In this document: positions 19,236 through 56,782 of the stretch, piece after piece
Layout of the letters: every line of letters starts with the position of its first letter
Position numbering within the stretch: position 1 is the first letter of the stretch
Source: an uncultured bacterium
GTDB lineage: Bacteria; Cyanobacteriota; Vampirovibrionia; Gastranaerophilales; Gastranaerophilaceae
Reading direction: 5' to 3'
Length of the DNA: 64,000 nt
Assembly: GCA_949285255.1 (NCBI GenBank)
Contig: CASDXV010000011.1
Coordinates: forward strand, 1 to 64,000
Notes under the pieces: model-generated
The model's database searches: none
The model's input: the letters and a program-made list of their open reading frames with translations, nothing else
Told to the model about the DNA's origin: nothing
Made by a program: the position numbers and the translations under genes

Positions 19236-19246
19236 CCTTTAGTTTG

Positions 19247-20958: not shown

Positions 20959-20983
20959 CTCTCCCCTTATTGTATATCAGGAT

Positions 20984-23842: not shown

Positions 23843-25348
23843 TTAATCCGGATTATGATTATATGCCCAGGCAAATTTTTCCGCAACTTGATTTCTGTAA
23901 CTGCGCTCAACCGCACCGTTTGCAAAAAGGTTATCATAGTGGCTCTTTGGTTTACCGTCAGTTGAGAAATTTCTGTTTTCAAGCATCAGATTATGTGTAT
24001 TTGTTCCGTAATTTAGCGGGAATAAATCGTGCATTTGCATAAACGAGGGGAGTTTTTCTGCAGCATTATCATAGCCAAAAAGCGAAGAATTGATTTTGTT
24101 CATTCTATCACTGTAGCAGATAAGCCCCTCATCATTATCATCAGATACTACAGGCCCCCAAGCAAAATCATTACACCAAGCTTGAGAGTGAGCAGAGTTT
24201 TTAACCGCATCCACGCTATCACAGTACATTTGGCTTGCTCCGGCGTTTACGCCCATATTTTTGTAGCGAAGAGAATCCCCCTCAGCTTTTTCACCTGAAA
24301 AACTCAAGTCAGTTCTTCCCGTGCGTTCTCTTATTTCAGCTAAAATATATGCCATCTGGTCATAACTTGGTACAGCACCAACTCCTGCGTAGTGTCCCCA
24401 GTCATAGCCGCCTACATGTTTTAGAGAATCAAAGAAAATACCATCAAAGCCAAGTTCTATACCTTTGCAGCAAGCAACAATAAATGCTTCAACATGCTCA
24501 GGGTTGTTCCATCTGAATTGTCCTGAGTCACCGAGTTTTAATTGGTCTTCTGATATTAACATACGAAAAGAAGTCTTAAAACCGCGAAGATGGGCAAGGT
24601 CATTAAATGCTTTTATTTGTTCTTCAGGAGTAAACATTTTCTTGCCAATATTGACCCAGCCAATGTTATCTGAGGCGCGCTCAAATTCAAGTTTGATACC
24701 ATAGAGGGAGTTTTCTCCGTTATTATTCCAACCATCTCCCCAGATGTTGGGATAAAGCTGTGATACCAAAATACAATTTGCCCACTTGTCATGTGAGGGC
24801 GGTATAGCGGGGAGCATTTTGATTGCGCCTAAAATTGAACTGTTTGTACGGTCATTGTGCATCTCGCCTAATGCACGGTTATTTATTTCTATATAGTTTG
24901 CATGTCTGCCCCAGTTGTCCCCATAGTTTGGAGTTTTAATGTCTGAGGGGATTTTATCGGGAACATTTTCGCCATATTGAAGAGTCATTATGGAATTTAT
25001 TGCATCTTTTAAATCTCTGTTTAAAAGTTCTTTTGGCTCAACCCCTGCTATCCATCTTTTTTCAGGATGATTAACACCATAAAATGTATTATGAAGAGTC
25101 CAGCCGTCGGCTTTTATTTTAGAGTTTTTTGAAGCTTGTGCATAGAGCTCTTGAGCAGGAGTCAGAGGTGTTTGTTTTTTTCTTCTGGCAGTAAAATTAA
25201 TTTTAGCACCGTAAATGTTACCCAGAGGAAGTTGAGTGTATGCCAAGTTGTTGTTGTAAATTTTTGGCGCAGTTACAGACTTTTGAGAGCCAAAGTTTAA
25301 ACTCCTTTGATTATTTAAAGCTGATACACTTGAAATTTTTCCAATCAT
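23843..25348 (-). CDS. GH13-like (alpha-amylase superfamily) protein with NFGS tag
   Basis: 501 aa. There is no signal peptide; the N-terminus carries SLNFGSQ (17-23) and KINFTARR (49-56). The centre looks like a TIM barrel of the alpha-amylase clan: GFDGIFFDSLKHVGG (301-314) fits strand 4 with candidate nucleophile D307. SFSGEKAEGD (349-358) fits strand 5 with acid/base E353. A late MQMHD may be the strand 7 His-Asp. The motifs are divergent, so activity on an alpha-glucan is plausible, not certain. It has a good AAAGGAG site 7 nt before ATG. It is monocistronic between the flagellar run and coaD. Confidence 0.72.
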   Translation of the reverse strand: MIGKISSVSALNNQRSLNFGSQKSVTAPKIYNNNLAYTQLPLGNIYGAKINFTARRKKQTPLTPAQELYAQASKNSKIKADGWTLHNTFYGVNHPEKRWIAGVEPKELLNRDLKDAINSIMTLQYGENVPDKIPSDIKTPNYGDNWGRHANYIEINNRALGEMHNDRTNSSILGAIKMLPAIPPSHDKWANCILVSQLYPNIWGDGWNNNGENSLYGIKLEFERASDNIGWVNIGKKMFTPEEQIKAFNDLAHLRGFKTSFRMLISEDQLKLGDSGQFRWNNPEHVEAFIVACCKGIELGFDGIFFDSLKHVGGYDWGHYAGVGAVPSYDQMAYILAEIRERTGRTDLSFSGEKAEGDSLRYKNMGVNAGASQMYCDSVDAVKNSAHSQAWCNDFAWGPVVSDDNDEGLICYSDRMNKINSSLFGYDNAAEKLPSFMQMHDLFPLNYGTNTHNLMLENRNFSTDGKPKSHYDNLFANGAVERSYRNQVAEKFAWAYNHNPD

Positions 25349-28632: not shown

Positions 28633-31600
28633 CTATTCAATTGTAAAATCAGGAGCTCCAAACATACCTTCGATTTCTTCTAATATTGCAGAAGGTTTTC
28701 TTGCTTGGTTTTTCTGTTGAGCACGTCTTAGGGCTTCTTTTTCCTTTTCTTCATTTGCGTTAATCAAATGATAGTAACCGGTACCGGCAGGAATCAGACG
28801 ACCGATAATGACGTTTTCTTTAAGACCTCTTAATAGGTCTTTTTTGCCTTCAACAGCAGCTTCTGTAAGGATTCTTGTTGTTTCTTGGAAAGAAGCGGCA
28901 GAGATGAAGCTTTCAGTATTCAAAGATGCCTTTGTAATACCAAGTAAAAGTGCCTCATACGTTGCTTTTTCGCCGCCTTGTTTTTCAACTTCAGCGTTTT
29001 GAGCTTCAATTTCTTTAAGTTCAACAAGTTCACCGGGAAGAAGTTTTGTTGTACCTGAGTCAACGACTCTGACTTTCTTAATCATTTGTCTAACTATAAC
29101 TTCAACGTGTTTATCAGCAATTTCAACACCTTGAGAACGATATACTCTTTGTACTTCATCTACAAGGTATTGTTGAGCAGCGTTTGCGCCTCTTAATCTG
29201 ATAACGTCATGAGGGTTTAGCGGCCCTGAAGTTAGTGCCTGACCTTTAACGATTTTTTGTTTATCTAAAACAATTACGTTAGATTCGATAGGATATTTAA
29301 TCTCTGTTCTGCCGTTTTCATTTACGATAAACAATCTTGCAACGTCATCTTCGTATTCAATTTCAGCAACACCGTCTTCTTCTGCAACAATAGCGCAGTC
29401 TTTGGGTTTTCTTGCTTCAAGAAGTTCTTCAACACGAGGAAGACCTTGAACGATGTCACCTGTTTTTTGTCTTTCAAATACAAGTGTTGCAAGCAAATCG
29501 CCTCTTAGGATGAGTGCTGAGTTATCAACCTGTAAAAGTGTACCGGGGCTTATCAAGTGAGGTCTGCCTATTCTTATTGTCACTGATTTTGGTGTAACTT
29601 CAACTACTCTGCCTGAGCAAGTAGATTTTTCGCCTGATGAAGAAATAACTGCATCAAGTTTTACAAACTCGCCGACTTTAACACTAGCTTTTGATTTGAT
29701 GTCAATTTTTCTTTCGTAAGTGTCAGATACAAGAAGTAATCTTCTTAATTCTTTATCTGTTTGTTTAATGCTTGCAATTGAGTCATTGACTGATAGAACT
29801 TGTGTTTTTGTAACAGGAGTTCTGGGTTCGATTATTTGACCGTTTTCTACAAGTAGTTCTGTTTGAGTAGAAGATAACATTCTTGAGCCTTCTTCTTGTT
29901 CACGACGAACAATTAGAGTTTCAAGAACAACGATTTTCAAGCTGCCATTTTTATCAAGCTCAACAAGACCTTTTAAGTGGCTTAAGTAGCCGCCCATTGA
30001 AAGAACTAATGAAGTTCTTGTAAGGACCGCACCATCAAGGTTACGAACTCTTGCACCGTCTTTGAATTGTAATTGAGTCAAAGGAACAATTTCAATTGAA
30101 TCATCTGTTGTATCAAACTTGATTGAAACATCTTTCGGCTTAATTTCAAATCTTTGAATAGGTCTTATAAGTATTTGAACTGATTTATTTTCGATGTTGT
30201 CATCTTCAACAATATCTTCTGTTATTTCTTCGTCTAAATCATCAATTTCAAGAACATCTGACTCGTTTTCAACAATAGTAACAATTGAATCAGCTTTTGC
30301 TTTAATGCCTGCAGCAACAATTGTACCTGCTTTAACAACTTCGCCCTCGTCAACTTTTAAGTCATTGATTGAATCAAGTGTGTGAAGTTCACCGGGGCGA
30401 ATAACAACTTCATGGATAATGTCGTTAAATTCTTTGATTTCAACAATACCGTCGATGTGAGTATAGAGGTCTTTTACAACTTCAGTACCGGCTTCAACGT
30501 ATGTGCCTGATTCAACAAGTTTTAGAGATGAATCTTTTGAAATTTGATGAATTTCTTCAGGTATAAATATCGCCTCACCGGCTTTTGTTACAACTTGATT
30601 TTCATCAACCTCAACGCCGTTGTAGCGAATTTCACCTGAAGATTCTACTTTGTGCTCTTCATCAATAAGTTCGGCTATTATCATACCGTTTTCAACCGTT
30701 GTATCAACGGGAGATTTAACGATGTATTTTTCGCCTGTTTTATCAACTGTCCAGAATTGTTCTTTTTTAGTTTGTTCAAAAGTAGCATTTGAAGGTTGAA
30801 TTGATGCAATAACGATTGTAAGCTCTTTACCCGCAACAATCTTTTTAATCTTTTTGCCTTCAAATTTAACTTCTTCAACTTCTAAAGAATTACCGACTCT
30901 AACTTCACCGCCATGTTCAGAAACAATCAATGTTTCAGCGAGTTTTTCGCCTTTTTTGATTTTTTGACCGTCTGAAACAAGAACCTTAGAGCCTGCAGGA
31001 AGAGTGTAAACATCTCCGCCTAAAACCCAAACAATACCTTGTTTGTTTGAAGTTCTTGAAATGTTGCCTTGTCTGTCTTTCTTTTCATCAGCTACGAAGT
31101 CTTCAAAAACAACTTCACCCGAGATATCAGATGTGATATCTTTTGTAGCTTTTTCGGTAAGACGAGAACCGTCACCTTTTGAAGCGGGTTCATATTCGGC
31201 AATTTCTTGACCTTTTTTAACTTCCATTCCTTGAGTAACGTATATTTTTGCGCCTGAAGGAACGTGAGCTTTTGTGATATTGCCTTTTTTATCTTCAATT
31301 TCAATATCGACTTCTTTTATTGCAACTTGTACAACATCCCCATGACGAGTTCTCAATTCACGAGTTTTAACTGCAGTTTTAACAGTACCGTCAACAGGTG
31401 ACTCAACGTGCTTCATAGCACCTGAACCTTTAAATACACCACCTGTGTGGAATGTTCTCATCGTAAGCTGTGTACCGGGTTCACCGATTGACTGAGCGGC
31501 GATAATACCGATTGCTTCACCGATGTCTACAAGTTTTTGTGTTGTCATTGCCCAGCCGTAGCATTTTTGGCAAATACCGTATTCAAGTTCGCAAGTAAGA

Positions 31601-32484
31601 GTTGAGCGAACATCAACTTCCTTGAGTTTGAGTTCTTTAATTTTTGCCAAATCTTCACGGTTAACTGTTGTGTTTTTAGTAACGATTACATTGCCGTCTT
31701 TATCTAAAATATCTTGTGCAACAGTTCTGCCTAACAATCTGTCTTCAAGAGGAACAATTACCTCATCACCGTCCATGATAGCCGTTAATTTGATTGATTT
31801 ATTTGTATGACAGTCTTCTTCACGGATGATAACATCTTGAGCTACGTCAACCAAACGACGAGTCAGGTAACCTGAGTCAGCAGTTTTAAGCGCCGTATCT
31901 ACAAGACCTTTACGTGCACCGTAAGATGAGATGATGTATTCTGTAACAGACAAACCTTCTTTAAAGTTTGATTTAATAGGCAAGTCGATAATCTGACCTT
32001 GCGCGTCTGCCATCAAACCACGCATACCAACAAGCTGAGATACCTGAGATAAGTTACCTCTCGCACCGGAGAATGCCATCATATAAACTGGGTTTAATCT
32101 GTCAAAGTTTTCAACTACCTGTTCTGTAAGTTTTGCAGTTGTTTCAGACCAAGTGTCGATAACTTTTGTATATCTTTCAACTTCTGTAATCTCACCTTTC
32201 ATATAGCGATAAGTTGACTCTTCAATTTGATTTTGAGCTTCTTCCAAGAGCTGTTGTTTAACTTTAGGAACGCTCAAATCATGAATTGAAATAGTTGTAC
32301 CTGCTTTTGTTGCATATTTAAAACCTAAGTTTTTAAGGTTATTTGCAAGTTCAGCAGTCTTAGCACCGCCCCACTCAAGATAAATTTGAGAGAGGAGTTT
32401 TCTTAAGCCGCCTTTATCAACTATTCTGTTAATAAATTCAACAGTATGTTTTTTCTTTTTACTCTGCGGAGTTAACGTAGTCAT
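28633..32484 (-). CDS. rpoC2: RNA polymerase beta'' subunit (RpoC2)
   Basis: 1283 aa. It corresponds to the C-terminal two thirds of bacterial beta-prime, encoded separately as in Cyanobacteria. Seen: the trigger-loop region (RGLMADAQGQIIDLPI; SSYGARKGLVDTALKTADSGYLTRRLVD), the second zinc site (SVRSTLTCE-type region with C...CQKC), GIIAAQSIGEPGTQLTMRTFHTGG, and the C-terminal EARKPK/GITKASLNT core. A long sandwich-barrel hybrid insertion (about 370-1000) separates them, as in cyanobacterial beta''. It is 38 bp downstream of rpoC1 and ends at a strong terminator. Confidence 0.97.
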   Translation of the reverse strand: MTTLTPQSKKKKHTVEFINRIVDKGGLRKLLSQIYLEWGGAKTAELANNLKNLGFKYATKAGTTISIHDLSVPKVKQQLLEEAQNQIEESTYRYMKGEITEVERYTKVIDTWSETTAKLTEQVVENFDRLNPVYMMAFSGARGNLSQVSQLVGMRGLMADAQGQIIDLPIKSNFKEGLSVTEYIISSYGARKGLVDTALKTADSGYLTRRLVDVAQDVIIREEDCHTNKSIKLTAIMDGDEVIVPLEDRLLGRTVAQDILDKDGNVIVTKNTTVNREDLAKIKELKLKEVDVRSTLTCELEYGICQKCYGWAMTTQKLVDIGEAIGIIAAQSIGEPGTQLTMRTFHTGGVFKGSGAMKHVESPVDGTVKTAVKTRELRTRHGDVVQVAIKEVDIEIEDKKGNITKAHVPSGAKIYVTQGMEVKKGQEIAEYEPASKGDGSRLTEKATKDITSDISGEVVFEDFVADEKKDRQGNISRTSNKQGIVWVLGGDVYTLPAGSKVLVSDGQKIKKGEKLAETLIVSEHGGEVRVGNSLEVEEVKFEGKKIKKIVAGKELTIVIASIQPSNATFEQTKKEQFWTVDKTGEKYIVKSPVDTTVENGMIIAELIDEEHKVESSGEIRYNGVEVDENQVVTKAGEAIFIPEEIHQISKDSSLKLVESGTYVEAGTEVVKDLYTHIDGIVEIKEFNDIIHEVVIRPGELHTLDSINDLKVDEGEVVKAGTIVAAGIKAKADSIVTIVENESDVLEIDDLDEEITEDIVEDDNIENKSVQILIRPIQRFEIKPKDVSIKFDTTDDSIEIVPLTQLQFKDGARVRNLDGAVLTRTSLVLSMGGYLSHLKGLVELDKNGSLKIVVLETLIVRREQEEGSRMLSSTQTELLVENGQIIEPRTPVTKTQVLSVNDSIASIKQTDKELRRLLLVSDTYERKIDIKSKASVKVGEFVKLDAVISSSGEKSTCSGRVVEVTPKSVTIRIGRPHLISPGTLLQVDNSALILRGDLLATLVFERQKTGDIVQGLPRVEELLEARKPKDCAIVAEEDGVAEIEYEDDVARLFIVNENGRTEIKYPIESNVIVLDKQKIVKGQALTSGPLNPHDVIRLRGANAAQQYLVDEVQRVYRSQGVEIADKHVEVIVRQMIKKVRVVDSGTTKLLPGELVELKEIEAQNAEVEKQGGEKATYEALLLGITKASLNTESFISAASFQETTRILTEAAVEGKKDLLRGLKENVIIGRLIPAGTGYYHLINANEEKEKEALRRAQQKNQARKPSAILEEIEGMFGAPDFTIE

Positions 32485-32522
32485 ATTTTATTGTTTCCTC
32501 ATCATTTTTAATTACATTTACA

Positions 32523-34235
32523 TTAAGCAAGAATTGATTTACGAACTACTTCGTTAAATACGATTCTGCCGGGCGTGGTTTCTATTCTCTTTCCTTCATC
32601 GTCTCTTACAACGATTTTGTCATGAAGCTTAACAATTCCGGATTCAAGAGCGGAAATTGCATCCATATAATCGTGGAAATAACCTTTTATAGGAGCGTTT
32701 TCGTCTTTTAGAATTGTCAGATAGTAAATACCTAATACCATATCTTGAGATGGTGTAATGATAGGTTTACCAGTTGCAGGAGCAAGAATGTTGTTTGTAG
32801 CAAGCATTAACATTCTGGCTTCAGCTTGAGCTTCAATTGAAAGAGGTACGTGAACAGCCATTTGGTCACCGTCGAAGTCAGCGTTAAACGCCGTACATAC
32901 AAGCGGGTGAAGCTGAATAGCACGACCTTCTACAAGAATAGGTTCAAATGCTTGAATACCGAGTCTGTGAAGGGTGGGGGCACGGTTTAACATAACGGGG
33001 TGTCCGTCAACCACTTCTTCTAATATATCCCATACGATAGGCTCTGAACGCTCGATTTTCTTCTTAGCGGATTTAATGTTTTGAACCAAACCGCGTTCAA
33101 TTAATTTATTAACAACAAAAGGTTTAAACAATTCAATTGCCATTTCTTTAGGCAAACCGCATTGATTTAGACTTAACTGAGGACCTACAACGATAACCGA
33201 ACGACCTGAGTAGTCAACACGTTTACCCAATAGGTTTTGTCTGAAACGACCTTGTTTACCTTCGATAATGTTTGATAAAGATTTAAGAGGTCTTGAGTTA
33301 GGCCCTACAACCGTTCTGCCGCGTCTGCCGTTATCAATTAGGGCATCAACGGCTTCTTGTAACATACGTTTTTCGTTACGTACGATAATTTCCGGAGCAC
33401 CCATTTCAAGCAGCCTTAAAAGACGGTTGTTACGGTTAATAACACGTCTGTATAAGTCATTTAAGTCAGATGTTGCAAAACGTCCGCCATCCAGTTGCAC
33501 CATAGGACGCAAATCCGGAGGAGTTATGGGAAGAACATCCATAATAAACCAAGTGGGCTCAGTTCCTGATTCAATTAAAGATTCAACAAGTCTTAATCTT
33601 TTGATTAATTTTGCTCTCTTTTGAACAGAACCGCCTGCAGCGTCAAGCTCGGAGCGAATTTCTTCAGCAAGTTCGGTAAGTTTTATTTCAGATAAAAGGT
33701 CCTTAATAACTTCAGCACCGATACCTACTTTTAGCGTAGAATCTTCATTTTCAAGAATGTAATCTTCATATTCTTCTTCAGATAGAAGCTGGAACTTTTT
33801 AAAAGGGCTTTCGCCGCCGTCAACTACAACGTAGTTGTTAAAGTATATGATTTGTTCCAAATCTTTTAAAGTCATATCAAGAAGTAAGCCAAGGTATGAG
33901 GGGATACCTTTTAAGAACCATATGTGAGATACGGGAGCTGCAAGCTTGATGTGACCCATACGGTGACGACGCACTTTAGAGTCTGTAACTTCTACACCGC
34001 AGCGTTCGCATATGATACCTTTGTGGCGTACTCTTTTATATTTACCGCAGTAACATTCCCAGTCTTTTGAAGGTCCAAAAATTCTTTCGCAAAACAGACC
34101 GTCGCGTTCGGGTTTTAATGTACGGTAGTTAATTGTTTCGGGTTTTGTAACCTCGCCGTAAGACCATTTCAATATGCGCTCGGGAGAGGCAATTGAAATT
34201 CTTATATAATCGAAATAATCAATACTAGTAGACAA
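32523..34235 (-). CDS. rpoC1: RNA polymerase beta' (gamma) subunit (RpoC1)
   Basis: 570 aa. It is the N-terminal part of beta-prime. The zinc-binding pair CYCGKYKR ... CERCGVEV is near residues 60-80. The catalytic [14 protein letters not shown] motif carries the three Mg-binding aspartates. The lid/rudder segment [20 protein letters not shown] is also clear. Its shortness relative to full beta-prime, followed at once by rpoC2, shows the split typical of Cyanobacteria and their non-photosynthetic sisters. It is 36 bp from rpoB. Confidence 0.97.
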
Positions 34236-38513: not shown

Positions 38514-41500
38514 TTATGCCGCAAAAAATCTGCTCATAATTTCCTGATGAGATACTTTGCCTATATTTACAGGTTTATAGAAAGTTGTTACCGTATCATT
38601 AATAACAATCTTTTTATTATCTTCACGCCTCAACTTGCCGTCAGATACAATGTATTTAACGGGGCTACCGTTAGAATCAACTTCATCAACAAATTTTCCG
38701 CCGATATAATTTCCGTTCTTATCGTATTCTTTTTGATAAACCTTTCTGTATAAATAGCTTTTATCCGTACAGTATTGGACACCATTTTCGTCTTTAAGAT
38801 TTATGCTTACAACTTCTACTTTTGCATCCTCATCCATTTTTGAATACGGGTCTTTTGTCATACCGACATTTGAGAACACATGCAATACGTTTGAACCTTT
38901 ATCATCGTATTTAAGCATTGCATAAAGGTCGTTTGTACCCTGAGGAAGTGAAATAGGCATGCCACCTGCAATTGCAGACAGTCCGTATTGTTTGTATAAA
39001 CCGGCACTTGCCTGCATTCTGTCATAGTACTCGCGTATTTCAGGCTTATATTCTTTTGAATCCCTTTGTATCCATTCATGGCGAACCAAATTTCTGTTTG
39101 CAACAGAAATATTTTTCGAAGCATACTCATAACCGGTTAAACCCATATTATCCCCAGCATAGAAGAACGGAGTACCTGTTATTGAGCTTAGAAAATCTGA
39201 CATTTTTGTCATTTTCTGAAGTGCGGGCTCCATAGCTGTACTAAATACAGAATTTTCAAGCTTCTTGCTTTCTTCTTCACTGAACCACTCTTTTTCATCA
39301 CGTTCAGCTATATATTTTGCCTGTTCCATAATATCTTTTATCGATATATCAAACGGATTTTGACCAAATGATTCGGCACGAAGATAATCAGGATGAATTT
39401 TTATTTTAAATTCACCCATAGCTAAATCTGCTATGGCTTCATTTATTATTTCAAGTTTTTCGGGTTTAAATTTCAACTCTTTTGCAAAAGCACTTCTTAA
39501 AAAGTCAGCAACTACAACTGCTTTTGAGCTTATTTTGTCATAATTATCGGGCTCTTTACCAAAAACTCTTATCGCAGCTTGTTTTGCACGTCTTATATCA
39601 TCTTCGTTTGTATCAGAACCTGAATTAATACCAAATCTTGAAAGATATGCACCCATATCAAGCGCAAGACAGAAAAGCGCCAGAGGCTTATCGTGGTTAT
39701 CTACAAACACATGGCTATGGGTTAAATACAATAGTGGCCCTGACTTGAGAAATTTGTCAATATTTTTCTTAAGTGAGTCCATATTAGCAAAATCACCAGT
39801 AATATTGCCTTTTTCAAAGTTTTGACCAAACAAGTTGGGTGTAAATCCATAGAATATTGAGTAATTTGAACTTGTTGTAGCACCTGTTTTTTCATAGAAC
39901 ATACGCTCTGCTATTTCATGGTTTTTATATTTACCCCAATCTTCAGCTACGAGCTGTTTTGTAAGTTCATTTATTTCAGTTTCGCTCGCACCTTCGCCAA
40001 GAGCAGCAATTGCTTCGTTTCTGTAGTTTTTATTACCTTCATAGAAACTGTAAAGGTCTGTTACCTCAGCAATGATATAAGACGAGGGGTTAATTGCTCT
40101 AACATTTTTAATAAATTCACCCCAAAATTCTATAACATCATCCCAAGAATCTTCAAATGTCCTCAGACCGTTTCTGTTTGTGTTTAAGTCACCTATATCC
40201 TTTGCTGCGTCAAATCTCCAGTTCAATCCGCCGCCTGTAAGCTTCAAAAGATTTTGGGCCATTTGAAATCCGTCTAGTTTATATTTGCTGGCATCCGTAC
40301 TTGCAATTTGTTCGGCCAAATCGGTTTGCTGACCATAAATTGCAGCTTCTCTGTCTAATCTCTTGTAGATGATTTTTCCTAACTGAAGCGCCTCGTCTTT
40401 GAAATTGCCGGATGGCATAACACCTGCTTCGTAAGGAGAGCGTTCTCTCATGGCTTTTGAAACTTTAATGGTACCGTCTTTTGAATCAATATAGGCACTA
40501 TCTTGAGGGAACATTGCCTTTAATATCGCATAACTTAAAATTTTTGGCACTAGAATATTTGCCATATACTGACCATACGTTGTAAGTTTTACACCGTTAT
40601 TAGCTTCTTCGGGATTATTTGTTTCGGTTGATAAAACATCGTTTACTTCGCTTGTAGGTTCAATTATAGCTTCAGGAGTACAGCCGTCAAGTCTTCTTAG
40701 AGTTTCTATTGTGAAATTAAAGAGTCTGTTTTTAACTTGCGGTGTTTTCATATACTCTGAAAACTCAGGCATAGAGAAAATCGCTTGGATTTGAGGAGAA
40801 ACATCAAGCGTTTCAAATCTGAAATTGTCTATGATGTTGTTAACATGAGCCTTAGCACTTACCACAAGAGCATTTGAATTAGGTTCATCAGAGCAGGCTC
40901 TCTCAAGAGCAAGTTGTAATTCTTGAGGAGTTACTCCGTTTTTTTGAGCAATATCGGCTACAAGTTTTCTGCCTTTTTCACCCTTAGAGAAACACTGAGC
41001 AAGATATTCAAATAAAGCGTCATGAGCAAATTGCGTCCAGTATGTTGCAGCAGAATATAAATGTTCCCTTGCATTATAATACCCTTCAACATTGCCTTCC
41101 ATGACATTAGGGTTTGAAAGATTCATTTTGACAATATCGACATTGCCATCCCAGAAGTTTGCACCGCCAGAACGGCCTTTTCTTACTATGTCATAGTTTT
41201 TAAAAGAGAAAAATGAATCAAGTTTATCCTTAATTTCAGGGTCATTAAGCATTTTACGCGAATAGCCGCTAAATCTTTGACGAACACTCTTATCAGAATA
41301 GTCCAGTTCAAAATAATATGGTATAACTGAGTCTTGATGAGTTGTTATGTCAAAATGGTCTTTAGAATTAGAATTTGCATATCTTTTAATCAGATTTTTT
41401 GAATCAAATTGCTGGTCTCTACTTGCAAGTCTATCATCAAAGAACTGAATATAGCTTGGTTTTTTAGGGTTATAGTCTTTTGTACCCCTCGGGTTTACTA

Positions 41501-42479
41501 TCTTAAAACCGATATGCTCCATTGCCTTTTCACGTTTTGGATTTGAAGATTGTATAGAGTCGGGAAGAACACCCAATTTCAATCTTCCGTTTATCTTAAA
41601 CCAATGGTAAAACGGTGAGTCTTTACCATATTTCAAAACATTTTGAAACATCGGACTTTGAATACTTTGAGAAGTAAAAGCACCGTCTGCTATGTAGCCT
41701 TTACCTTCTTTGTAAAGGTCTATAAGGACTTCTCTAAATTTAGAAGCAGATGGGACTTGAAAGAAATTTTCACCCCAGTATTTATGCGATGACTTAGAGT
41801 CTCTGCCAAAATAAGGGTTTGTCATTACATATCTGTATGGTTCAAGTTCATCTCTGTATTTAACAATACTGTCCAAATCACCGCCTGCTTTATTAAAATG
41901 GTTTCTTACAAAAGAAGAGCGGTCAATCCCTTGGCTGTCAAACGAATCGTAGAAAATATGAGCAGCAGAACCGGATTTAGGTGTTACACTCATATTATTT
42001 GATATAACAGTGAAATCTCCGTATTTCGATTGCACTTTTACACCGGGGTCATTAATGTAGCCAAGCGTTTCAAGGTTATCAAAGGGGCTTTCGTTACTAT
42101 CAGGGTCAATATTGCGGGAGGCATTCAGGGCTTGGTTTTTATCAACCAATCTAAACCTGTAACCCATAAACTCACTATCTTCAGGGTTGCTTATAATAAT
42201 AGTTCTGGGGTACTCTGATGTTCCCAAGTCTCTTAGTTCTTTATATGATTTATTAAGGGTAAAGGGTTCTGTAATACTTGTGTCAAGCTCAAATCCTCCG
42301 TTACCGTCTTCCTTAACGGCACAAAGTTCAAGAACAAGAGCGTATTTACTTTTATCATATGGAGGCGCATAAAACTTATAAACATCCTCAAAGTCATTAT
42401 CATAGCCTCTTTTTAAGCCACCAAATGAAGTATTGTTTTTATTATCTGCCTTCTGCAGTTCTATTGCTGAGATTTTCAC
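38514..42479 (-). CDS. Giant GH13 enzyme with SFGG tag and a very long insertion
   Basis: 1321 aa. There is no signal peptide; the N-terminus has NTSFGGLKRG (16-25). The GH13 active-site set is complete but widely spaced: strand 3 region GYIADGAFT (261-269), strand 4 nucleophile D757 in GLNWRFDAAKD, strand 5 acid/base E805 in YIIAEVTD, strand 7 H929-D930 in VDNHDKP, then TPFFYAGDNMG. About 490 residues separate strands 3 and 4, far more than a usual domain B. The C-terminus is a beta-sandwich-like region. The likely substrate is an alpha-glucan; hydrolase and transferase cannot be separated. The start is GTG. It is the last gene of the membrane-protein/GH13 run, 117 bp after the previous GH13 gene. 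Confidence 0.88.
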   Translation of the reverse strand: MKISAIELQKADNKNNTSFGGLKRGYDNDFEDVYKFYAPPYDKSKYALVLELCAVKEDGNGGFELDTSITEPFTLNKSYKELRDLGTSEYPRTIIISNPEDSEFMGYRFRLVDKNQALNASRNIDPDSNESPFDNLETLGYINDPGVKVQSKYGDFTVISNNMSVTPKSGSAAHIFYDSFDSQGIDRSSFVRNHFNKAGGDLDSIVKYRDELEPYRYVMTNPYFGRDSKSSHKYWGENFFQVPSASKFREVLIDLYKEGKGYIADGAFTSQSIQSPMFQNVLKYGKDSPFYHWFKINGRLKLGVLPDSIQSSNPKREKAMEHIGFKIVNPRGTKDYNPKKPSYIQFFDDRLASRDQQFDSKNLIKRYANSNSKDHFDITTHQDSVIPYYFELDYSDKSVRQRFSGYSRKMLNDPEIKDKLDSFFSFKNYDIVRKGRSGGANFWDGNVDIVKMNLSNPNVMEGNVEGYYNAREHLYSAATYWTQFAHDALFEYLAQCFSKGEKGRKLVADIAQKNGVTPQELQLALERACSDEPNSNALVVSAKAHVNNIIDNFRFETLDVSPQIQAIFSMPEFSEYMKTPQVKNRLFNFTIETLRRLDGCTPEAIIEPTSEVNDVLSTETNNPEEANNGVKLTTYGQYMANILVPKILSYAILKAMFPQDSAYIDSKDGTIKVSKAMRERSPYEAGVMPSGNFKDEALQLGKIIYKRLDREAAIYGQQTDLAEQIASTDASKYKLDGFQMAQNLLKLTGGGLNWRFDAAKDIGDLNTNRNGLRTFEDSWDDVIEFWGEFIKNVRAINPSSYIIAEVTDLYSFYEGNKNYRNEAIAALGEGASETEINELTKQLVAEDWGKYKNHEIAERMFYEKTGATTSSNYSIFYGFTPNLFGQNFEKGNITGDFANMDSLKKNIDKFLKSGPLLYLTHSHVFVDNHDKPLALFCLALDMGAYLSRFGINSGSDTNEDDIRRAKQAAIRVFGKEPDNYDKISSKAVVVADFLRSAFAKELKFKPEKLEIINEAIADLAMGEFKIKIHPDYLRAESFGQNPFDISIKDIMEQAKYIAERDEKEWFSEEESKKLENSVFSTAMEPALQKMTKMSDFLSSITGTPFFYAGDNMGLTGYEYASKNISVANRNLVRHEWIQRDSKEYKPEIREYYDRMQASAGLYKQYGLSAIAGGMPISLPQGTNDLYAMLKYDDKGSNVLHVFSNVGMTKDPYSKMDEDAKVEVVSINLKDENGVQYCTDKSYLYRKVYQKEYDKNGNYIGGKFVDEVDSNGSPVKYIVSDGKLRREDNKKIVINDTVTTFYKPVNIGKVSHQEIMSRFFAA

Positions 42480-42596
42480 AGTACTTACCCTTATTGTTCC
42501 CTTTATTTTTTACAAAACATCTGAAAGGATAAAATTGCCTAAATATACAATTTTATTTTGCAGATATTTAAAAAACTTAACTACAACATCATGAGC

Positions 42597-44366
42597 TTAA
42601 AAATTTTGCTGCATAACATTTTCAGGTTTTGATAATTTCTCAATATCAGGTGTATCAATTTCAAATACATGTGCTCTTAGGGGCCCTAAATCAACCGTCA
42701 TTGAACCGTTAGCTTTTTGGAAATAGCTCGGTTGAGAATAATCAGGTACGAGATTATCCAGCTTTTGGTCAGCCTTAAAGCCAGGAATATTAATCTTTGC
42801 ACTTGTTCTTAAGTTAGCATTTCTGTTACCGACAAAAAGAAGTGTTTTGCCGTCTTTATGTCTTGCATATGCAATAATTTCAGGGTTATTTGTTTCAAGT
42901 TTGATAAACGAACCATGTTGAATAAGGTCTTTGTATTTATCATTATTTCTTACAGCAAGAGAAGATTTAATAAACTCTTGAATTTGCGGGAAATCACCGC
43001 CCGGTTTTCTTGAGAAGTTAAATATATCCAATCTGCCCTTATGAACCGTGCACTCATCGTTATCTGTTTGAGATGTAGGAGATTTAGCATGGTCATACGG
43101 GTATAAGAAATAATCACCTGTTTGAACACCGTCTATAAAATACGGGTTTACCATAGGAAGAGTAGATTGCATAGCGGTTGTAAACATAACCCATGGAGCA
43201 CCGCCGTAGTACATGGGGCTTTGGTCATCATGAGTTGTCATCGAACCGATAAGAGATTTTGGCTCTTTCATTCTGTTGGACATATCAATGTTATCTCTCA
43301 TATAGTTAAAGAGGTCATCTGCTTTTGTCCATTGGTTAAATATGTGGAATTGACCATAGTAAGAGTTAAATCCGCCTCTTAGCTGGTCTTCAGGTCTATC
43401 ATAGGGCATATTAAGCTGAGGTGAAGCATCTTCATATGTGTAAGATTCTGCCAACCAGCCAAATTGAGGGTCAACAGAGTGAGAATAAGGAATAATAACA
43501 TTCCAGAACTCAATTGGTTTTGCACGGGACACATCGGCTCTTATACCGTCTATTCCAAGCTCAACACAGGCATCAACGTATTTTTTGTGCATATCAAGAA
43601 GCGCAGGGTTGAGTTTTCTTTTTGCTTCATCATCCCAAACCCTAAACATTCTGATATCTTGCCAGCCTTGAGGAGTTTTATCTTGCCCGTCTTTTTCTTT
43701 TGCCATTAATTCAGGATGTCTTCTTGAAAAATCTAAACTGGCACAAGAGGGTAAATCAAGCATTACTGAAATTCCGCGCTTATGGCATTCATCAATAAAG
43801 ATTTTGAAATGGTCCCAAGCACTGCCCTCTACATTAGGGTCTTTTAAATTAGGGTCAACTGCAAGCTTGCCATCATCTTCAATGAATCTGTCAGGAGCAT
43901 ACAAAGAACCTGCCGTACCCATAGCAAGGGTTTTACCTGTCGGGTGAATGGGTAGAATATGAAGGGTATTTATACCCATTGCTTTTATTTCGTCAAGTCT
44001 TTCTATTGCATTAATAAAGTTACCTGATTCTTCACCTATTTGAATAAGGCCATTGCCGTCAATGTCTTTAGCATTCATAGTTCTTGGCACAACACCCAAG
44101 ATGTTTGCTTCATTATTTTTAAGCATATCTTTAAAGTGATTTTGCCATTGGATATTTTGCACTGAAGCCATATCGCCCACAGCAGCTACATTTGAAGAGG
44201 GTAAAATCTGGCTTGATTGCTTAATAATATATTTGCTCAAAAGCGGATTATATGGAGTCTTTTGAGCTTCGTTTGATGTTTGCTCATAAGTGTTTGCAAC
44301 TTGTTCTTTTTTATAAGTTGTTTGAGGTATTAAGTAGCGATTTGTTGATATATTATTTACTTGCAT
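42597..44366 (-). CDS. GH13 alpha-amylase-family enzyme
   Basis: 589 aa, no signal peptide. The catalytic residues are in order: strand 2-3 VMLDLPSC (D204, a variant of DLVxNH), nucleophile D278 in GIDGIRADVS, acid/base E307 in GWLAESYT, and H379-D380 in SMTTHDDQSP. An EF-hand-like loop DIDGNGLIQIGEE (101-113) suggests calcium binding. A C-terminal all-beta domain ends near residue 575. The AESYT/THDDQ pattern fits transferase or debranching-type members as well as amylases. Its start overlaps the upstream 834-aa membrane protein gene by 14 nt, so translation is coupled. Confidence 0.92.
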   Translation of the reverse strand: MQVNNISTNRYLIPQTTYKKEQVANTYEQTSNEAQKTPYNPLLSKYIIKQSSQILPSSNVAAVGDMASVQNIQWQNHFKDMLKNNEANILGVVPRTMNAKDIDGNGLIQIGEESGNFINAIERLDEIKAMGINTLHILPIHPTGKTLAMGTAGSLYAPDRFIEDDGKLAVDPNLKDPNVEGSAWDHFKIFIDECHKRGISVMLDLPSCASLDFSRRHPELMAKEKDGQDKTPQGWQDIRMFRVWDDEAKRKLNPALLDMHKKYVDACVELGIDGIRADVSRAKPIEFWNVIIPYSHSVDPQFGWLAESYTYEDASPQLNMPYDRPEDQLRGGFNSYYGQFHIFNQWTKADDLFNYMRDNIDMSNRMKEPKSLIGSMTTHDDQSPMYYGGAPWVMFTTAMQSTLPMVNPYFIDGVQTGDYFLYPYDHAKSPTSQTDNDECTVHKGRLDIFNFSRKPGGDFPQIQEFIKSSLAVRNNDKYKDLIQHGSFIKLETNNPEIIAYARHKDGKTLLFVGNRNANLRTSAKINIPGFKADQKLDNLVPDYSQPSYFQKANGSMTVDLGPLRAHVFEIDTPDIEKLSKPENVMQQNF

Positions 44367-46857
44367 CTACCCCTCCTTGAGCACTTTTTTCTTTTTTATA
44401 CAGGTGCTCATGTTTAACTTTTCCAAAGAACATTTGAGAAACAAGAGTTATTCCAAGAACTGCTATACCAATACCGCCAAATGTCTTGAGCCATGTTTTA
44501 TCGTTAAATTTCTGGCTTGCGGTTTCCATAAACAATTCACTTACGGATTTACCGACCATTGAGTATTGAGTCTTCTGACAAACATCTATTCCGCCTTGAA
44601 GAGTATGTCCTTGTCTTGCCAAATCTGCTGCGCTTGCATAGATATTATATATATTCCTTCTTGTTGCATTCAGAGAATCAAGCATCTTTTTGTCACAGTT
44701 TTCAATAGTTGCCTTGCTCATACCAAACAACGGTTTCTTGTCTTCGCCAAGCTTATCTGAAATACCAAATAAAAGTTTAATTACTTTTGGCGCTTCAATA
44801 CCGTTACCGTCCATGTAGAACTTATTTGACAAGTCATTCATAGTGCCGTCATAGATAATATCTCTACAAATTTTCTTAACTTGTTCAAATACATCCTCAC
44901 TGCCGCCAAGTTCTTTCCAGAAAGCTTCAAGCTCACCTGTTTGTATTCTCTTTTCTAAGTCAGCTGCAAGAATATATCTGTGTCCTGTTGCTTTTATGCC
45001 TGCACCTTTTTCTTGTACAAAAAGCTTGATAACTTTTTCGTACAATGGCATTTTACTCATTTTATTATCAGTACCAAACTTTGATACTTCTTTTTTATAG
45101 AAAGCAAAGGGGGAATCATCGCTTATTTTACTAAAAGCATTACCTATTGTCCTGTTTGCATAGTCTTCAACTTTTTTAAGAACTTTATCTATTGTTTTTG
45201 ATTCAAGATTAGCTTGTTTTGCAGTAATTGAAGAAATAAAGTCGCCGTATCTGTTGCCTTTATCCTGCGCAACTGATGTAAGTGCTCCAACAAGGTATGA
45301 TTTTGCATTATCGGTAGAATTTCTTGCAATTTTTAAGTCATCCATAGTAGGGCTTAGCTGCTTCATAAATTCATTCAAAGAATCAAGGTGCAACATAGTA
45401 TGTACTGATTCATATTTTTGACCTACAAGACCATTGATAAAATCATCTATACCTCTTACCTGAGCGCTTAGAGGTCTTGTTTGAGAATTATAAATCTCAC
45501 CTATTGATTGGCAAAATTCTTCAACAATGCGAGGGTCAGCATCTTCTCTTTTCAAGAATTGTTTTGCAAGACCCATTATACTGTCTTGAATTTCGCATTT
45601 TTCCTGATTTGCCGTAGCATTTTCAAATGCTCTGCAAAAATCATCAAAAGCAACGATTGTTTTAAATTCGTCGACCTTAACAGATAGCGGGTCAAGTTGA
45701 CGTTTTAAACTTGCAAAAATTTCTGCACCTACAGCAGGCTTTGAGGCTTGAAGGTCAAACTTGCCATGTTCAGCCTTAGTCATTTTTTTCAGTCTTCTCA
45801 TAAACTCGCCGTAGTCAATGCTTGAGGGTACATAGTCACGAGTTTTTAGTGCAGTATAATCTGCTTCAAGTCTTTTTCTGACTCTTGGCGCAAAACTCGA
45901 AAGGTCAGCCACCAAATTGCCATCATCTAAATCTCTTGTAGAAATAAGCTCCCTAAACGGGTCAAGACAAATAGACACATTGCCGAAAAATGCCTTGTCG
46001 GGCTCTTTTGTTCTATCTTCAATAAGTGATTGAAGCTTGTTTACAACCTTGGCGTCAAAATCAGGATTATTCTTAATTCTATCTGCAATAATCGCTTCCA
46101 TGTTATCTACTTCAGATAGGATTTTATTGTATTTAGAGTTTACAAGATATCTTGTAACACCTCTTTCACCAAGATTGCATATCATAGATGTCAAAAGCGG
46201 GCTAAAACCTGCGCTTAGCATCCACAAAGTATTACCCTGAAGAGCAATTGAGCGCATTTTTTCTTTAATCAACTCTTCGCGGTCTTTAACATCTTTTGGA
46301 ACATTAAGCTTGTCACCGACTTTGTTTAAGTCTTCTTTTGACCATAAATCCCATGGTTGATATTGGTTATCTTGGAAGAAAGATTTCTTTCTGCCTTGCG
46401 AATCAACATATTTTTGTCTTATATCAAAACCAAAACGCATTTTCATAGGTTCTGATATAAACAATCTGGGCCACATTGCCATTGATGCAAAAAATGCACC
46501 AAAGCCCAAAAATTCCATTAGACCTTTTGTCGTTGTACCGCGTCTTGTAAACAAGTAAGAAGCAATACCCAAGCCGCCAAGTTTCATGCCAAGGTCGTTA
46601 AATCTTCCAAGTTGGTTATCGTTAGATTCACCTTTTACTAAAGCTTTACCCAATTCTACAACATCTTTTACAGTATCTCCTGCGCCGATTATAACACTTG
46701 ATACGGGATTTCTGCTTTTTAGCAAATAGCCTTTTGCCTTTTGCGGAGCAGTTGAATTAGCATTTAAAACAAAAGCTCTATAGACATCTTGTTTAGCTAT
46801 ATCGTCACGAAGTTTTTCGTATTGTTTATTTAGGATTGAGGAATTAATATCGTTCAT
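44353..46857 (-). CDS. Four-TM membrane protein with large soluble insertion (unknown family)
   Basis: 834 aa. Hydrophobic segments lie at about 90-105, 113-135, 208-228 and 797-815, followed by a basic tail. A long helical soluble region (about 240-790) separates TM3 from TM4. Between TM2 and TM3 a conserved-looking stretch (MRFGFDIRQKY ... QPWDLWSKEDLNKVGDKLNV) parallels the upstream protein (MKTGVDLEMPYRK ... PRWDLINKAG ... YDKIAKKMGF), so the two are paralogs. No enzyme motif is seen. The start overlaps the previous stop as TAATG and the end overlaps the GH13 gene by 14 nt. It may scaffold the GH13 enzymes at the membrane (inference). Confidence 0.85.
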   Translation of the reverse strand: MNDINSSILNKQYEKLRDDIAKQDVYRAFVLNANSTAPQKAKGYLLKSRNPVSSVIIGAGDTVKDVVELGKALVKGESNDNQLGRFNDLGMKLGGLGIASYLFTRRGTTTKGLMEFLGFGAFFASMAMWPRLFISEPMKMRFGFDIRQKYVDSQGRKKSFFQDNQYQPWDLWSKEDLNKVGDKLNVPKDVKDREELIKEKMRSIALQGNTLWMLSAGFSPLLTSMICNLGERGVTRYLVNSKYNKILSEVDNMEAIIADRIKNNPDFDAKVVNKLQSLIEDRTKEPDKAFFGNVSICLDPFRELISTRDLDDGNLVADLSSFAPRVRKRLEADYTALKTRDYVPSSIDYGEFMRRLKKMTKAEHGKFDLQASKPAVGAEIFASLKRQLDPLSVKVDEFKTIVAFDDFCRAFENATANQEKCEIQDSIMGLAKQFLKREDADPRIVEEFCQSIGEIYNSQTRPLSAQVRGIDDFINGLVGQKYESVHTMLHLDSLNEFMKQLSPTMDDLKIARNSTDNAKSYLVGALTSVAQDKGNRYGDFISSITAKQANLESKTIDKVLKKVEDYANRTIGNAFSKISDDSPFAFYKKEVSKFGTDNKMSKMPLYEKVIKLFVQEKGAGIKATGHRYILAADLEKRIQTGELEAFWKELGGSEDVFEQVKKICRDIIYDGTMNDLSNKFYMDGNGIEAPKVIKLLFGISDKLGEDKKPLFGMSKATIENCDKKMLDSLNATRRNIYNIYASAADLARQGHTLQGGIDVCQKTQYSMVGKSVSELFMETASQKFNDKTWLKTFGGIGIAVLGITLVSQMFFGKVKHEHLYKKEKSAQGGVDASK

Positions 46858-47891
46858 TAGTGCACCTCGTATCCTTTATTAATATCTATTTGTGTGTCAG
46901 GTTGATTTTTTGCAACTTTAAAACCGCGAGTAGCGTTTGCTACACCAAGAATAGTAGAAGCTAAAGCCCCAAATATAAGGCCTCTGCCTACAATTTTTGC
47001 TCCGCGCGTAAATTTAAAGTTGTTTCCGTTATACAAATCTATAAAGCTGTCTTTAAGTGTTTCGGCACAATTTCTTGCAAATACTTTAAGTTTTTCTGAG
47101 CGCTTAGCGTACTCAGGCATTGCAATTTTATTTTCAAAAGGAGCTTGAACAGCAAGCGCTACACCTAAACCAGCCCAAATAAATGAGCTTATTGATTTTG
47201 CGGCACTTGATTTAACAATAACTTCTTTTACCTTGCCTTGAACTGTTTGGTCAGGTGAATTCAAAGGCTCTTTAAAGCCCATTTTTTTAGCTATTTTATC
47301 GTACCAAATATACCTGTTGCCTTGTTTTTCACCTGCTTTATTAATTAAATCCCAACGCGGAAAATCAGCGCTTTCAAAAACTCTATGGTATTCTACAGCC
47401 GTTAAGTCCTTATCGCCGGGGTGTTCAGGCAACTCTGTAACAACTTTTCTATAAGGCATTTCAAGGTCAACACCTGTTTTCATTTGAACACCTTTATTGA
47501 TAAGTTTTGAACCGAGCCATTTACCTATAGCGTAGAAAACTACACCAAAAGCCATTTTTCTGCCGGGGATTCCTGCAAAAGCTCTGTCAGGATTTCTGAA
47601 GTTTTTATTAACCCCGTTAAATAAAGCAATGAGCATGCCTGAACCGACTAAATTTGGCACAAGGCCTAATGATAAAAATTCATAAAAATTGGAGTTTCTT
47701 GAGCCCTTCATGCCTTTTGGTGCATAAACAAAAATATCATTTACTAATTTATCCGCAACAATTCTTGCGCCTGTTAGAGGAGTCTTTTTAATTATCTCAT
47801 CAGATGTGCTAGCAAGCTCCTTATCGGCATGATTTTGCACATAATAAGAGTTTTGAGGTATATTTGTAAAATTGTTTTTACTTGTTTGCAC
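46857..47891 (-). CDS. Four-TM membrane protein, paralog of the downstream 834-aa protein
   Basis: 344 aa from GTG 47891. An upstream in-frame TTG at 47990 would add 33 residues but has no Shine-Dalgarno, and the polar start MQTSKNNFTNIPQNS matches the N-termini of its neighbours. Four hydrophobic segments are visible: FLSLGLVPNLVGSGMLIALF, MAFGVVFYAIGKWLG, SFIWAGLGVALAVQAPF and GLIFGALASTILGVANA. The TGVDLEMPYRK ... RWDL stretch after TM2 matches the downstream protein. It leads the run and is coupled to the next gene by TAATG. The family and function are unknown. Confidence 0.8.
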   Translation of the reverse strand: MQTSKNNFTNIPQNSYYVQNHADKELASTSDEIIKKTPLTGARIVADKLVNDIFVYAPKGMKGSRNSNFYEFLSLGLVPNLVGSGMLIALFNGVNKNFRNPDRAFAGIPGRKMAFGVVFYAIGKWLGSKLINKGVQMKTGVDLEMPYRKVVTELPEHPGDKDLTAVEYHRVFESADFPRWDLINKAGEKQGNRYIWYDKIAKKMGFKEPLNSPDQTVQGKVKEVIVKSSAAKSISSFIWAGLGVALAVQAPFENKIAMPEYAKRSEKLKVFARNCAETLKDSFIDLYNGNNFKFTRGAKIVGRGLIFGALASTILGVANATRGFKVAKNQPDTQIDINKGYEVH

Positions 47892-48060
47892 CTTAATTGT
47901 AGGACTCCAAAAACTAACACACACATTAATGAAAAAGTCTGAATGAAAATATTTGATACCATATTTGATAAAATTTACATTGGTTAACAAATATTTTTAC
48001 TTTTCATCAACAACAACACCAAATGTAGATAAATGAGCCAAAATTATGTAAAATAAATAT

Positions 48061-54661: not shown

Positions 54662-56782
54662 CTATACTGATTTTTCATTAACAGTAATAGCATCGGCAAA
54701 GTAATCAATGATTTTCGGGTCAACTTTTACCGCACGTTCAGTTGCCATTACCTGACCATTAATATCATATTTACTTTCAACTCTATCTTTTAATTCAGGA
54801 GATGTTGCAACAAGACCTGTTTGAGTATTTACGCATTTTAGAACATTGGCTCTTTCGAAATCTTCCAATTCAAAATCACCTGAAGCAATCTGCATTGTAG
54901 TATGGTACAGTTGGTTCAAGCTGCCGCAATCAGCCCAAGGCTCATCTGTAGGAACTGCAACAATTTTTTGGTCTCCCAAGAGATTTTTTGCAAATAAAAT
55001 CTCATCCATTGGAATATTTGATTCATTTGTATTAACAATTGAGGCAATTTCTTTTCTTATGGTAAACGGGTCATCATTTTGTGTCAGTGACATCAAAATA
55101 GGAGTTAAGCATTTAGACCAATCTCTTGGTTCCTTACCTTTGCCCGCAGGGAAATAAGGAGAAAGAATTTCAAGTGCTTTGAATGCTTCTTTGCTCACTG
55201 CAAACTGGAATGTATTTACCATACATTTACCCTCAGGTGAAATAAGGTCTTTGGAAGGATTTTTCGGTTTTTCAACAAACTGTAGTATCTCATTATTTTC
55301 ACCAAGTTTCATAATACCAAAATTTTTTGCCAAAGACGGGTCAACTTCTTTTGCTATCATAACCATAGCAGCTTCCCCCGAATCAATAAGTTCTTTTGTT
55401 TTGACCATAGCATCAGTAACTCTGGAAATCGGGTCATTTGGCAAAATTAACAAGTTTTCTCTGCCTGAGCGTTTCATCTTGTTATACATATCAATTGTAA
55501 AACCGCCGTTACCTTTGTTAACCCCTGATTTGTTTAAGTAAAATTTAACATTTTTGCCTACTCCAAATACACCTTTTGAACAATCCAAAAGTCCTGCATT
55601 GTGAAGTGTAATAAATGTTGTTTCCATAGGAGTTAAACCTGTGGGGGTTCTGAACACACCCTTAGTAGATTGTGCACCATGTTCAATTTTTTCTTTATCC
55701 TTACCGTGAAAAATACCATCAGAAGAGGCATTTGTATATTCTGCACGTGAACCAAAACCGCCTGCAAGCATTGCTATCTGTGTTTTATCGGCATCTGGTG
55801 CAGCAACAAAAGTATCAAGAACTATCTCTCCATTGTTAATTTTTTCTTCAAATTCTACAATACTTTGAATAATTTCCGGAACAAAACGACCGTTTTCCAT
55901 ACCTATTACAATTTCAGTACCCTTACCCACAGAAGCTTCCGGATGTCTTTCACGCACTTCTTGTGGTTGTGCTACAAACGGCACAAAGACATTTGCACCT
56001 TTTCTGGCATTAACTACAAGTGTTCCGTCAAGAGTATCTTTTTTAACTATTTTACCGGTATCTGTCATAAGAATATATCTGTCTACGGGGTTAGAAGCAG
56101 AATTATCCTCAACTACAGACATTAAGTTGCCTTTTGTGTTCAGTATATAAGCAAGCTCTTTCATAGGTTCAGATAATTTTGAATCCGGAGTTAATAAGAC
56201 TCTGATATTTTGCTTCAATGGCAAAGATAAATCAGCACGCATTTTTCTAACCGGTTTTGGCTGGCGAACAGCCATTTCGTACAAGAAATCTTCTCCGGCA
56301 TTTTTAATTTGAGTTCTTGCAATAGTTTCATACGGAACAGTTTTTTCATACACATAATATCTTCCGGTAGAATTGTACTGCTGCTCATGTTTTTCTTTTC
56401 TGTCTTCATTTGAAACCACAATGTTTGTTTTAACCGCATCTTCATATTTAGGTAAAGAATCATGCAGTTCTTCAATGATTTCAGAAACATTTGCCCTGCT
56501 TCCTGTCATTTCACCTTTTATACCTGCAGCAGGGTCATCACAAGTAACAACTTGCATGTTAAATTTATCAAATACTTCATTTAAAGAAAGACCGCCTGTA
56601 AAATTAACTGTTTTTGCAGTTTGAATACCGTTTAGTGCTTGATAAGCGCTAGCTAGTTTTGCAGCTTGGGTTTTTGAACCTTCAAAATTTACACTTTGTG
56701 CTTTTGCAGGTGTAACTGCAACATTTGAACGTAGTGCCTGATTTTTAACATTTACAGGACTTAAACTGACTTTGTTTATCAT
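54662..56782 (-). CDS. Sugar nucleotidyltransferase-like protein with long tagged N-terminus
   Basis: 706 aa. Two NFxG tags (SVNFEGSK at 30-37, TVNFTGGL at 58-65) lie in a non-globular start. An unrecognised region (about 70-330) precedes a nucleotidyltransferase fold (about 336-660): AMLAGGFGSRAE (GGxGTR variant), delayed KGVFRTPTGLTPMETT, LPNDPISR, GIMKLGENNEILQFVEKPKNP and PWADCGS. These match GlgC/GalU-type enzymes, which make NDP-glucose from glucose-1-phosphate. An insertion of about 30 aa splits the usual GGxGTR...KP signature. A good AAAGGA site precedes ATG. An alpha-glucan or cell-surface sugar role is inference. Confidence 0.82.
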   Translation of the reverse strand: MINKVSLSPVNVKNQALRSNVAVTPAKAQSVNFEGSKTQAAKLASAYQALNGIQTAKTVNFTGGLSLNEVFDKFNMQVVTCDDPAAGIKGEMTGSRANVSEIIEELHDSLPKYEDAVKTNIVVSNEDRKEKHEQQYNSTGRYYVYEKTVPYETIARTQIKNAGEDFLYEMAVRQPKPVRKMRADLSLPLKQNIRVLLTPDSKLSEPMKELAYILNTKGNLMSVVEDNSASNPVDRYILMTDTGKIVKKDTLDGTLVVNARKGANVFVPFVAQPQEVRERHPEASVGKGTEIVIGMENGRFVPEIIQSIVEFEEKINNGEIVLDTFVAAPDADKTQIAMLAGGFGSRAEYTNASSDGIFHGKDKEKIEHGAQSTKGVFRTPTGLTPMETTFITLHNAGLLDCSKGVFGVGKNVKFYLNKSGVNKGNGGFTIDMYNKMKRSGRENLLILPNDPISRVTDAMVKTKELIDSGEAAMVMIAKEVDPSLAKNFGIMKLGENNEILQFVEKPKNPSKDLISPEGKCMVNTFQFAVSKEAFKALEILSPYFPAGKGKEPRDWSKCLTPILMSLTQNDDPFTIRKEIASIVNTNESNIPMDEILFAKNLLGDQKIVAVPTDEPWADCGSLNQLYHTTMQIASGDFELEDFERANVLKCVNTQTGLVATSPELKDRVESKYDINGQVMATERAVKVDPKIIDYFADAITVNEKSV

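Follow-up and report, generated by a model that had tools for sequence, protein, structure and literature searches.

Why do two membrane protein genes and two genes of glycoside hydrolase family 13 (GH13) lie together in one tight run, and do their products work together? The question is raised by a locus in positions 1 to 64,000 of contig CASDXV010000011.1 (assembly GCA_949285255.1), from an uncultured bacterium of the family Gastranaerophilaceae (Cyanobacteriota; Vampirovibrionia; Gastranaerophilales); this whole 64,000-nt stretch is called the window here. The four genes are named mem344, mem834, gh589 and big1321. The initial annotation described them as packed minus-strand genes with a TAATG junction, a 14-nt overlap and a 117-bp gap, and all coordinates of the four open reading frames (ORFs) agreed when re-derived from the window (Table 1). 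At the first junction, ...CACTAATGAAC..., 1 nt is common to the mem344 stop codon and the mem834 start codon. We found that the conserved core is three genes, mem344 > mem834 > gh589, and the sequences indicate that mem834 very probably keeps the GH13 enzyme gh589 at the membrane as it works.

The closest linkage is seen in a sister order, that of genome G382, where 14 of the 18 genomes carried the module and kept its gene order (for G431, counted among the 14, there is a weak partial GH13 match only). In G382, a class-level outgroup, a mem344 homologue is followed by a single ORF of 1030 aa. Its residues 1-518 match mem834 including the last helix and residues 518-1030 match gh589, the GH13 domain stands directly after the last helix, and the catalytic triad is present. 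A big1321 homologue adjoins this fusion ORF divergently in G382, the one genome of its order for which this neighbourhood is known. One colinear protein of mem834 and gh589 also exists in G433 (986 aa) and G434 (1082 aa). The two are separate genes with a 4-nt overlap in about nine other genomes of the order, and G433 holds both fused and separate copies (L325 and L338). In the GH13-domain tree the fused forms make one clade (99/98) and Gastranaerophilales make another (100/99). The simplest account of these sequences would be that the unit predates the split of the two orders and that one fusion followed later. No sequence evidence speaks more strongly than such a gene fusion for the membrane protein and the enzyme acting as one assembly. 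The guess in the initial annotation that the system is membrane-tethered is strengthened by the single ORF in three genomes. The separate mem834 and gh589 presumably associate in the way that the two parts of the fusion have to.

A scan of named genomes gave 207 relatives, and the best 80 were taken; these are Gastranaerophilales-type assemblies, a few of them under other names. The initial annotation held that membrane genes without GH13 neighbours in relatives would speak against its proposal, and the loci examined here did not bring this refutation. At all 80 loci the three genes were contiguous, in the same order and on the same strand, within the reach of the contigs. Among 47 further loci the order was rearranged in one (L037) and gh589 was broken or split in one (L035). 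Neighbouring genes of the unit touch or share a few bases, with a junction of <=30 nt at 115 of 121 mem344-mem834 and 106 of 123 mem834-gh589 sites. mem834 was present in 48 of 58 relatives and in 175 of 386 genomes of the phylum, nearly all within the window's family, where it was missing from only one sampled genome. The surroundings vary by genus: rpoB, TPR and rsmG genes in the window's genus, and genes of the kdsD-kdsC-queD-uppP-panD type elsewhere. The unit stays intact amid these changes, and therefore the unit itself is what is kept.

In the window's genus, and likewise in several other lineages, the gene big1321 lies directly downstream of the unit; in one lineage it lies divergently. 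The ten mem834-less relatives among the 58 were all without mem344 and the long big1321 as well (Fisher tests, 1e-9 and 5e-9, on related genomes that are not independent; the ten span several families and genera). Genomes without the module are scattered (G025, G029, G032, G035, G041, G043, G046, G051, G052 and G398). The GH13 matches in G025, G029 and G032 were 0, 1 and 2, and these genomes are GH13-poor generally.

Against Pfam PF00128, gh589 scored 13.3 bits, below the 22-bit cut-off. Its family profile matched in PDB the amylase 4gkl (1.3e-25), the Thermotoga maltodextrin glycosyltransferase 1gju (9e-23) and GlgE 3zss (4e-16); by predicted fold and triad it is a divergent GH13. The Pfam search with the big1321 protein of the window gave no family at E<=1, and some big1321 orthologues exceed the PF00128 cut-off. 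The big1321 profile matched cyclomaltodextrinase 1ea9 at 3.2e-27, with maltogenic amylase 1sma and the neopullulanase group nearest, and a mainly helical insert of about 400 aa lies between conserved regions I and II. BLAST gave no significant direct similarity between gh589 and big1321. The complete Asp/Glu/Asp sets claimed for both enzymes proved invariant in the alignments (Table 1), together with H379 of gh589 and R755 and H929 of big1321. A hydrophobic signal peptide was found in neither enzyme, as had also been claimed. The window genome has in addition a gh589 paralogue (34% identity) with a typical signal peptide, and homologues of this paralogue occur in most relatives, among them some that lack the operon. 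It means that exported and non-exported forms are distinct.

The membrane half of the unit could be placed in no known family. By family-averaged hydropathy, about four transmembrane (TM) helices are predicted in mem344 (residues ~73-91, 113-131, 230-248 and 304-322) and four in mem834 (~86-104, 116-134, 211-229 and 793-811). Between TM3 and TM4 of mem834 there is a mainly helical insert of about 560 aa, visible also in the AlphaFold2 model (mean predicted local distance difference test 80.3, predicted template-modelling score 0.68). The two proteins were guessed to be paralogous, and profile-profile comparison bore this out: mem344 is homologous to the N-terminal ~250 aa of mem834 (hhalign 97.4%, E 9.5e-12, 194 columns; a second alignment pair gave 79.9%, 1.4e-5). 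Searches of Pfam, NCBIfam, PADLOC and PDB sequences gave nothing convincing for either protein. mem834 had one marginal match in PHROGs, to a function-unknown family (0.0023), and was not found on plasmids or phages.

Taking these results together, it is reasonably probable that mem344, mem834, gh589 and big1321 form a membrane-docked complex that processes alpha-glucan on the cytoplasmic face. In this proposal the paralogous four-helix proteins mem344 and mem834 would form a membrane platform, and mem834 would hold gh589 beside its last helix, on the side of its lysine/arginine-rich C-terminus. big1321 may join the same complex as second enzyme, and at the surface of the membrane the two enzymes would cleave alpha-1,4/1,6-glucan chains or transfer them. 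The substrate would most likely be glycogen or maltodextrins of the own cell; we infer both the alpha-glucan substrate and the purpose of the unit. Five lysine or arginine residues stand within 15 residues past the last helix, in the window's mem834 and in the fusion. Because of this tail and the lack of signal peptides, the GH13 domain is most likely cytoplasmic; the intracellular location proposed in the initial annotation is thus favoured and stays at the level of inference.

The genome context is compatible with this proposal. Canonical GlgC and GlgA of the window genome exceed their NCBIfam cut-offs, and there is a GH57-type candidate, recognised by motif only. These fit the published statements that Gastranaerophilales have a capacity for glycogen storage (PMC5877343) and for fermenting starch or glycogen (PMC4040986, PMC3787301).

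Several points weigh against this proposal. Proteins from separate genes do not necessarily form a stable complex. The four-gene system of the initial annotation stands for the order mem344 > mem834 > gh589 and not for big1321, which in many lineages is not adjacent to the unit and lies elsewhere in the genome. Region I is without the usual Asn-His in both enzymes (DLPSC in gh589, DGAFT in big1321), so hydrolase and transferase are not readable from sequence. A canonical GlgA-type glycogen synthase is present throughout the genomes that lost the unit; glycogen synthesis in itself can therefore do without the unit. The topology is based on hydropathy and the positive-inside rule, and the charge bias is weak at the other helices.

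Could the membrane proteins instead move the sugar? As a channel or transporter, mem344 and mem834 might let maltodextrins or some other alpha-glucan through the membrane, with the GH13 enzymes trimming the sugar in transit. The obligate pairing of two multi-helix paralogues with a GH13 enzyme would suit this idea, as would a fusion whose GH13 domain directly follows the last helix. But neither protein resembles transporter families in Pfam, NCBIfam or PDB sequences, where ABC, MFS and PTS maltodextrin-transporter signatures were also absent. Each has only about four helices, and mem834 is mostly a soluble helical insert. Foldseek with the mem834 model gave no match at E<=0.001 in PDB and a viral library (best template-modelling score ~0.1). 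We regard a transporter as unlikely, yet deserving some weight.

The N-terminus of big1321 raises a further possibility. It is disordered up to a closing [N/S]xF-x-G, whose F19 and G21 are as invariant as the catalytic residues. A leader of this kind, an N/S/T/K-rich N-terminus ending in [NST]F[GKTSR][GAS], is found on unrelated proteins. The strict form occurs on 32 proteins against 5.7 expected in the window genome (1.44 of 1.60 Mb), and a broad regular expression gave no clear enrichment (11.3% against 9.9%). Strict or close forms are carried by divergent GT5-like, NTP-transferase-like, GlgX-like and GH77 proteins, whereas canonical GlgC and GlgA and the second GlgX and GH77 copies are without leader. 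The leader is also found on glucan-unrelated proteins (helicase, AAA, RelA/SpoT-like and subtilase-like), and therefore it does not in itself mark a protein as glucan-related. One window gene encodes a 706-aa divergent nucleotidyltransferase of the NTP-transferase-like kind with two NFxG leader motifs. At its syntenic site in most sister species (L269-L284), leader residues 1-70 are kept and the body is different. Two leader-bearing multi-helix membrane proteins have a common TNIPRT motif; the one on L168 had no Pfam match, and no relation to mem344 or mem834 was found. We rejected the idea that a complete, tagged glycogen pathway is inherited along with the unit, for leader proteins of the GT5-like and NTP-transferase-like kinds have a patchy distribution even inside the genus.

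We speculate, with low expectation, that Vampirovibrionia may have a dedicated membrane compartment or assembly site for alpha-glucan. Its core would be mem344/mem834 with docked GH13, and the NFxG/SFxG leader would recruit a second, divergent glycogen-type set (GT5-like, NTP-transferase-like, GlgX-like, GH77 and big1321) beside the canonical soluble set.

The same leader could be read as an export signal, with the enzymes acting outside the cell, in the gut lumen or in a prey or host cell. The invariance of the leader on big1321 would agree with this, and the syntenic reassortment of leader and body resembles that of secreted effectors. The window encodes the flagellar export proteins FliF and FlhA, and in Chlamydia glycogen enzymes are exported into a vacuole (PMC4829429, PMC3722199). 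However, the leader occurs sporadically among gh589 proteins (15/77) and rarely among those of mem834 (4/80), and helicase, RelA/SpoT-like and AAA proteins that look intracellular have it too. With GH13 fused to it, a multi-pass membrane protein would be a poor export substrate, and GH13 paralogues with classical signal peptides are already in the genome. Export is thus quite improbable.

Even less probable is that gh589 has a structural or sensing role in a membrane complex made for some other task, catalysis being secondary. A GH13 domain joined to membrane helices recalls heavy chains of the SLC3 type, but the invariant triads in both enzymes and the triad in the fusion are unexpected for a dead scaffold. 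That the gene order is retained for expression only and the proteins do not work together is hardly credible, for translational coupling alone can retain overlapping genes but the fusion, the preservation of the unit in changing surroundings and the joint loss speak against it.

Table 1. Features of the four-gene run, of its leader-bearing genes and of other genes mentioned in the text
Feature	Position	Strand	Remarks
mem344	46857..47891	(-)	344 aa; GTG start within longer frame beginning TTG at 47990
mem834	44353..46857	(-)	834 aa
mem834/gh589 overlap	44353-44366		14 nt
gh589	42597..44366	(-)	589-aa GH13 enzyme
gh589 D278	43533..43535	(-)	putative catalytic nucleophile (GIRADV); invariant, 21 sequences
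gh589 E307	43446..43448	(-)	putative acid/base (LAESYTYEDASP); invariant, 21 sequences
gh589 D380	43227..43229	(-)	putative transition-state Asp (THDDxSP); invariant, 21 sequences
gh589/big1321 gap	42480-42596		117 nt
big1321	38514..42479	(-)	1321-aa GH13 enzyme; GTG start
big1321 TSFGG leader motif	42417..42431	(-)	residues 17-21; F19, G21 invariant in aligned orthologues
big1321 D757	40209..40211	(-)	putative nucleophile (NWRFDAAKD); invariant, 14 sequences including outgroup
big1321 E805	40065..40067	(-)	putative acid/base; invariant, 14 sequences including outgroup
big1321 D930	39690..39692	(-)	putative transition-state Asp (DNHDKP); invariant, 14 sequences including outgroup
Leader-bearing window sites	42417-42431, 54662-56782, 23843-25348		about 27 further genes in G000
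Divergent nucleotidyltransferase	54662-56782	(-)	706 aa
Leader-bearing GlgX-like, GH77, GT5-like set	L161:10914-13187, L162:371-2392, L166:11123-13519		
Leader-free copies beside leader-bearing set	L163:533-2686, L215:370-2259, L164:3601-5034		
gh589 paralogue with signal peptide	L162:12058-13728	(-)	window genome
Leader-bearing membrane proteins	L168:5486-7087, G000 C7:79168-81201		common TNIPRT motif
Split rpoC	28633-34235	(-)	570 + 1283 aa
Flagellar export genes	17145-22687	(-)	FlhA 17145-19235, FliF 20984-22687

The neighbours of the run are the housekeeping genes rpoB, split rpoC and rsmG, with genes for a TPR protein and for an exported protein of 218 aa. rpoC is present as two genes, as in cyanobacteria, and flagellar export genes are found in the window. 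A sugar transporter, SusC/D or a classical glg gene does not adjoin the run, in agreement with the initial annotation. The glgC, glgA, glgP and glgB neighbours of a classical glycogen operon were absent at the run, and neither a SusC/SusD pair nor a lipoprotein amylase was found within it. A promoter scan gave no more matches than shuffled sequences.

A literature search with subscription journals outside its coverage gave no description of such a membrane/GH13 system, which agrees with the first impression that no system of this composition had been described. Both "transmembrane" and "anchored" are absent from the available part of a 2024 review of prokaryotic alpha-glucan enzymes (PMC11046441). 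What these data offer is two orphan membrane families linked to active-site-intact GH13 through a fusion and through a gene order that holds in two orders. Bacterial glycogen enzymes are usually pictured as soluble. If the proposed complex is true, a conserved membrane platform would change the picture of storage-glucan handling in an abundant uncultured gut lineage, non-photosynthetic relatives of cyanobacteria, and the fused protein is a single polypeptide for direct testing of the complex.

Known systems resemble the unit in part. The classical glycogen system (GlgA, GlgB, GlgC, GlgP, GlgX, MalQ) likewise has GH13 enzymes acting on alpha-glucan inside the cell, but it is without a membrane subunit, none of its genes is in this run, and the unit is missing from some genomes that keep glycogen synthase. 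In Sus-type starch utilisation, SusG is a membrane-held GH13 amylase as proposed for gh589, but it is an outer-membrane lipoprotein outside the cell, working with SusCDEF including TonB-dependent SusC/SusD, none of which is in this run. In human amino-acid transporters, GH13-like SLC3 heavy chains (4F2hc, rBAT) are paired with SLC7. They have a GH13-type domain on a membrane helix and a multi-helix partner, like mem834-gh589, and the fusions of G382, G433 and G434 likewise join a GH13-like domain to a membrane segment. An APC-fold partner was not recognised, as there are about four helices, no Pfam transporter match and no fold match for mem834. The GH13-like domain of SLC3 is extracellular, 4F2hc is without catalytic residues and the partners are unrelated, whereas mem834-gh589 has invariant catalytic residues and a GH13 domain that probably lies in the cytoplasm. 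In Chlamydia (PMC4829429) a second alpha-glucan site is likewise served by glycogen enzymes, but these are canonical enzymes brought into the inclusion by type III secretion, and no partner like mem344/mem834 is known. The nearest GH13 structures (4gkl, 1gju and 3zss for gh589; 1ea9 and 1sma for big1321) have the common TIM-barrel core and Asp/Glu/Asp triad, but they have no membrane partners, big1321 differs by its large helical insert, and region I differs. So the unit appears new by composition: we found no kind of system with such a membrane half coupled to GH13, whereas its enzymes are, by predicted fold and triad, ordinary GH13.

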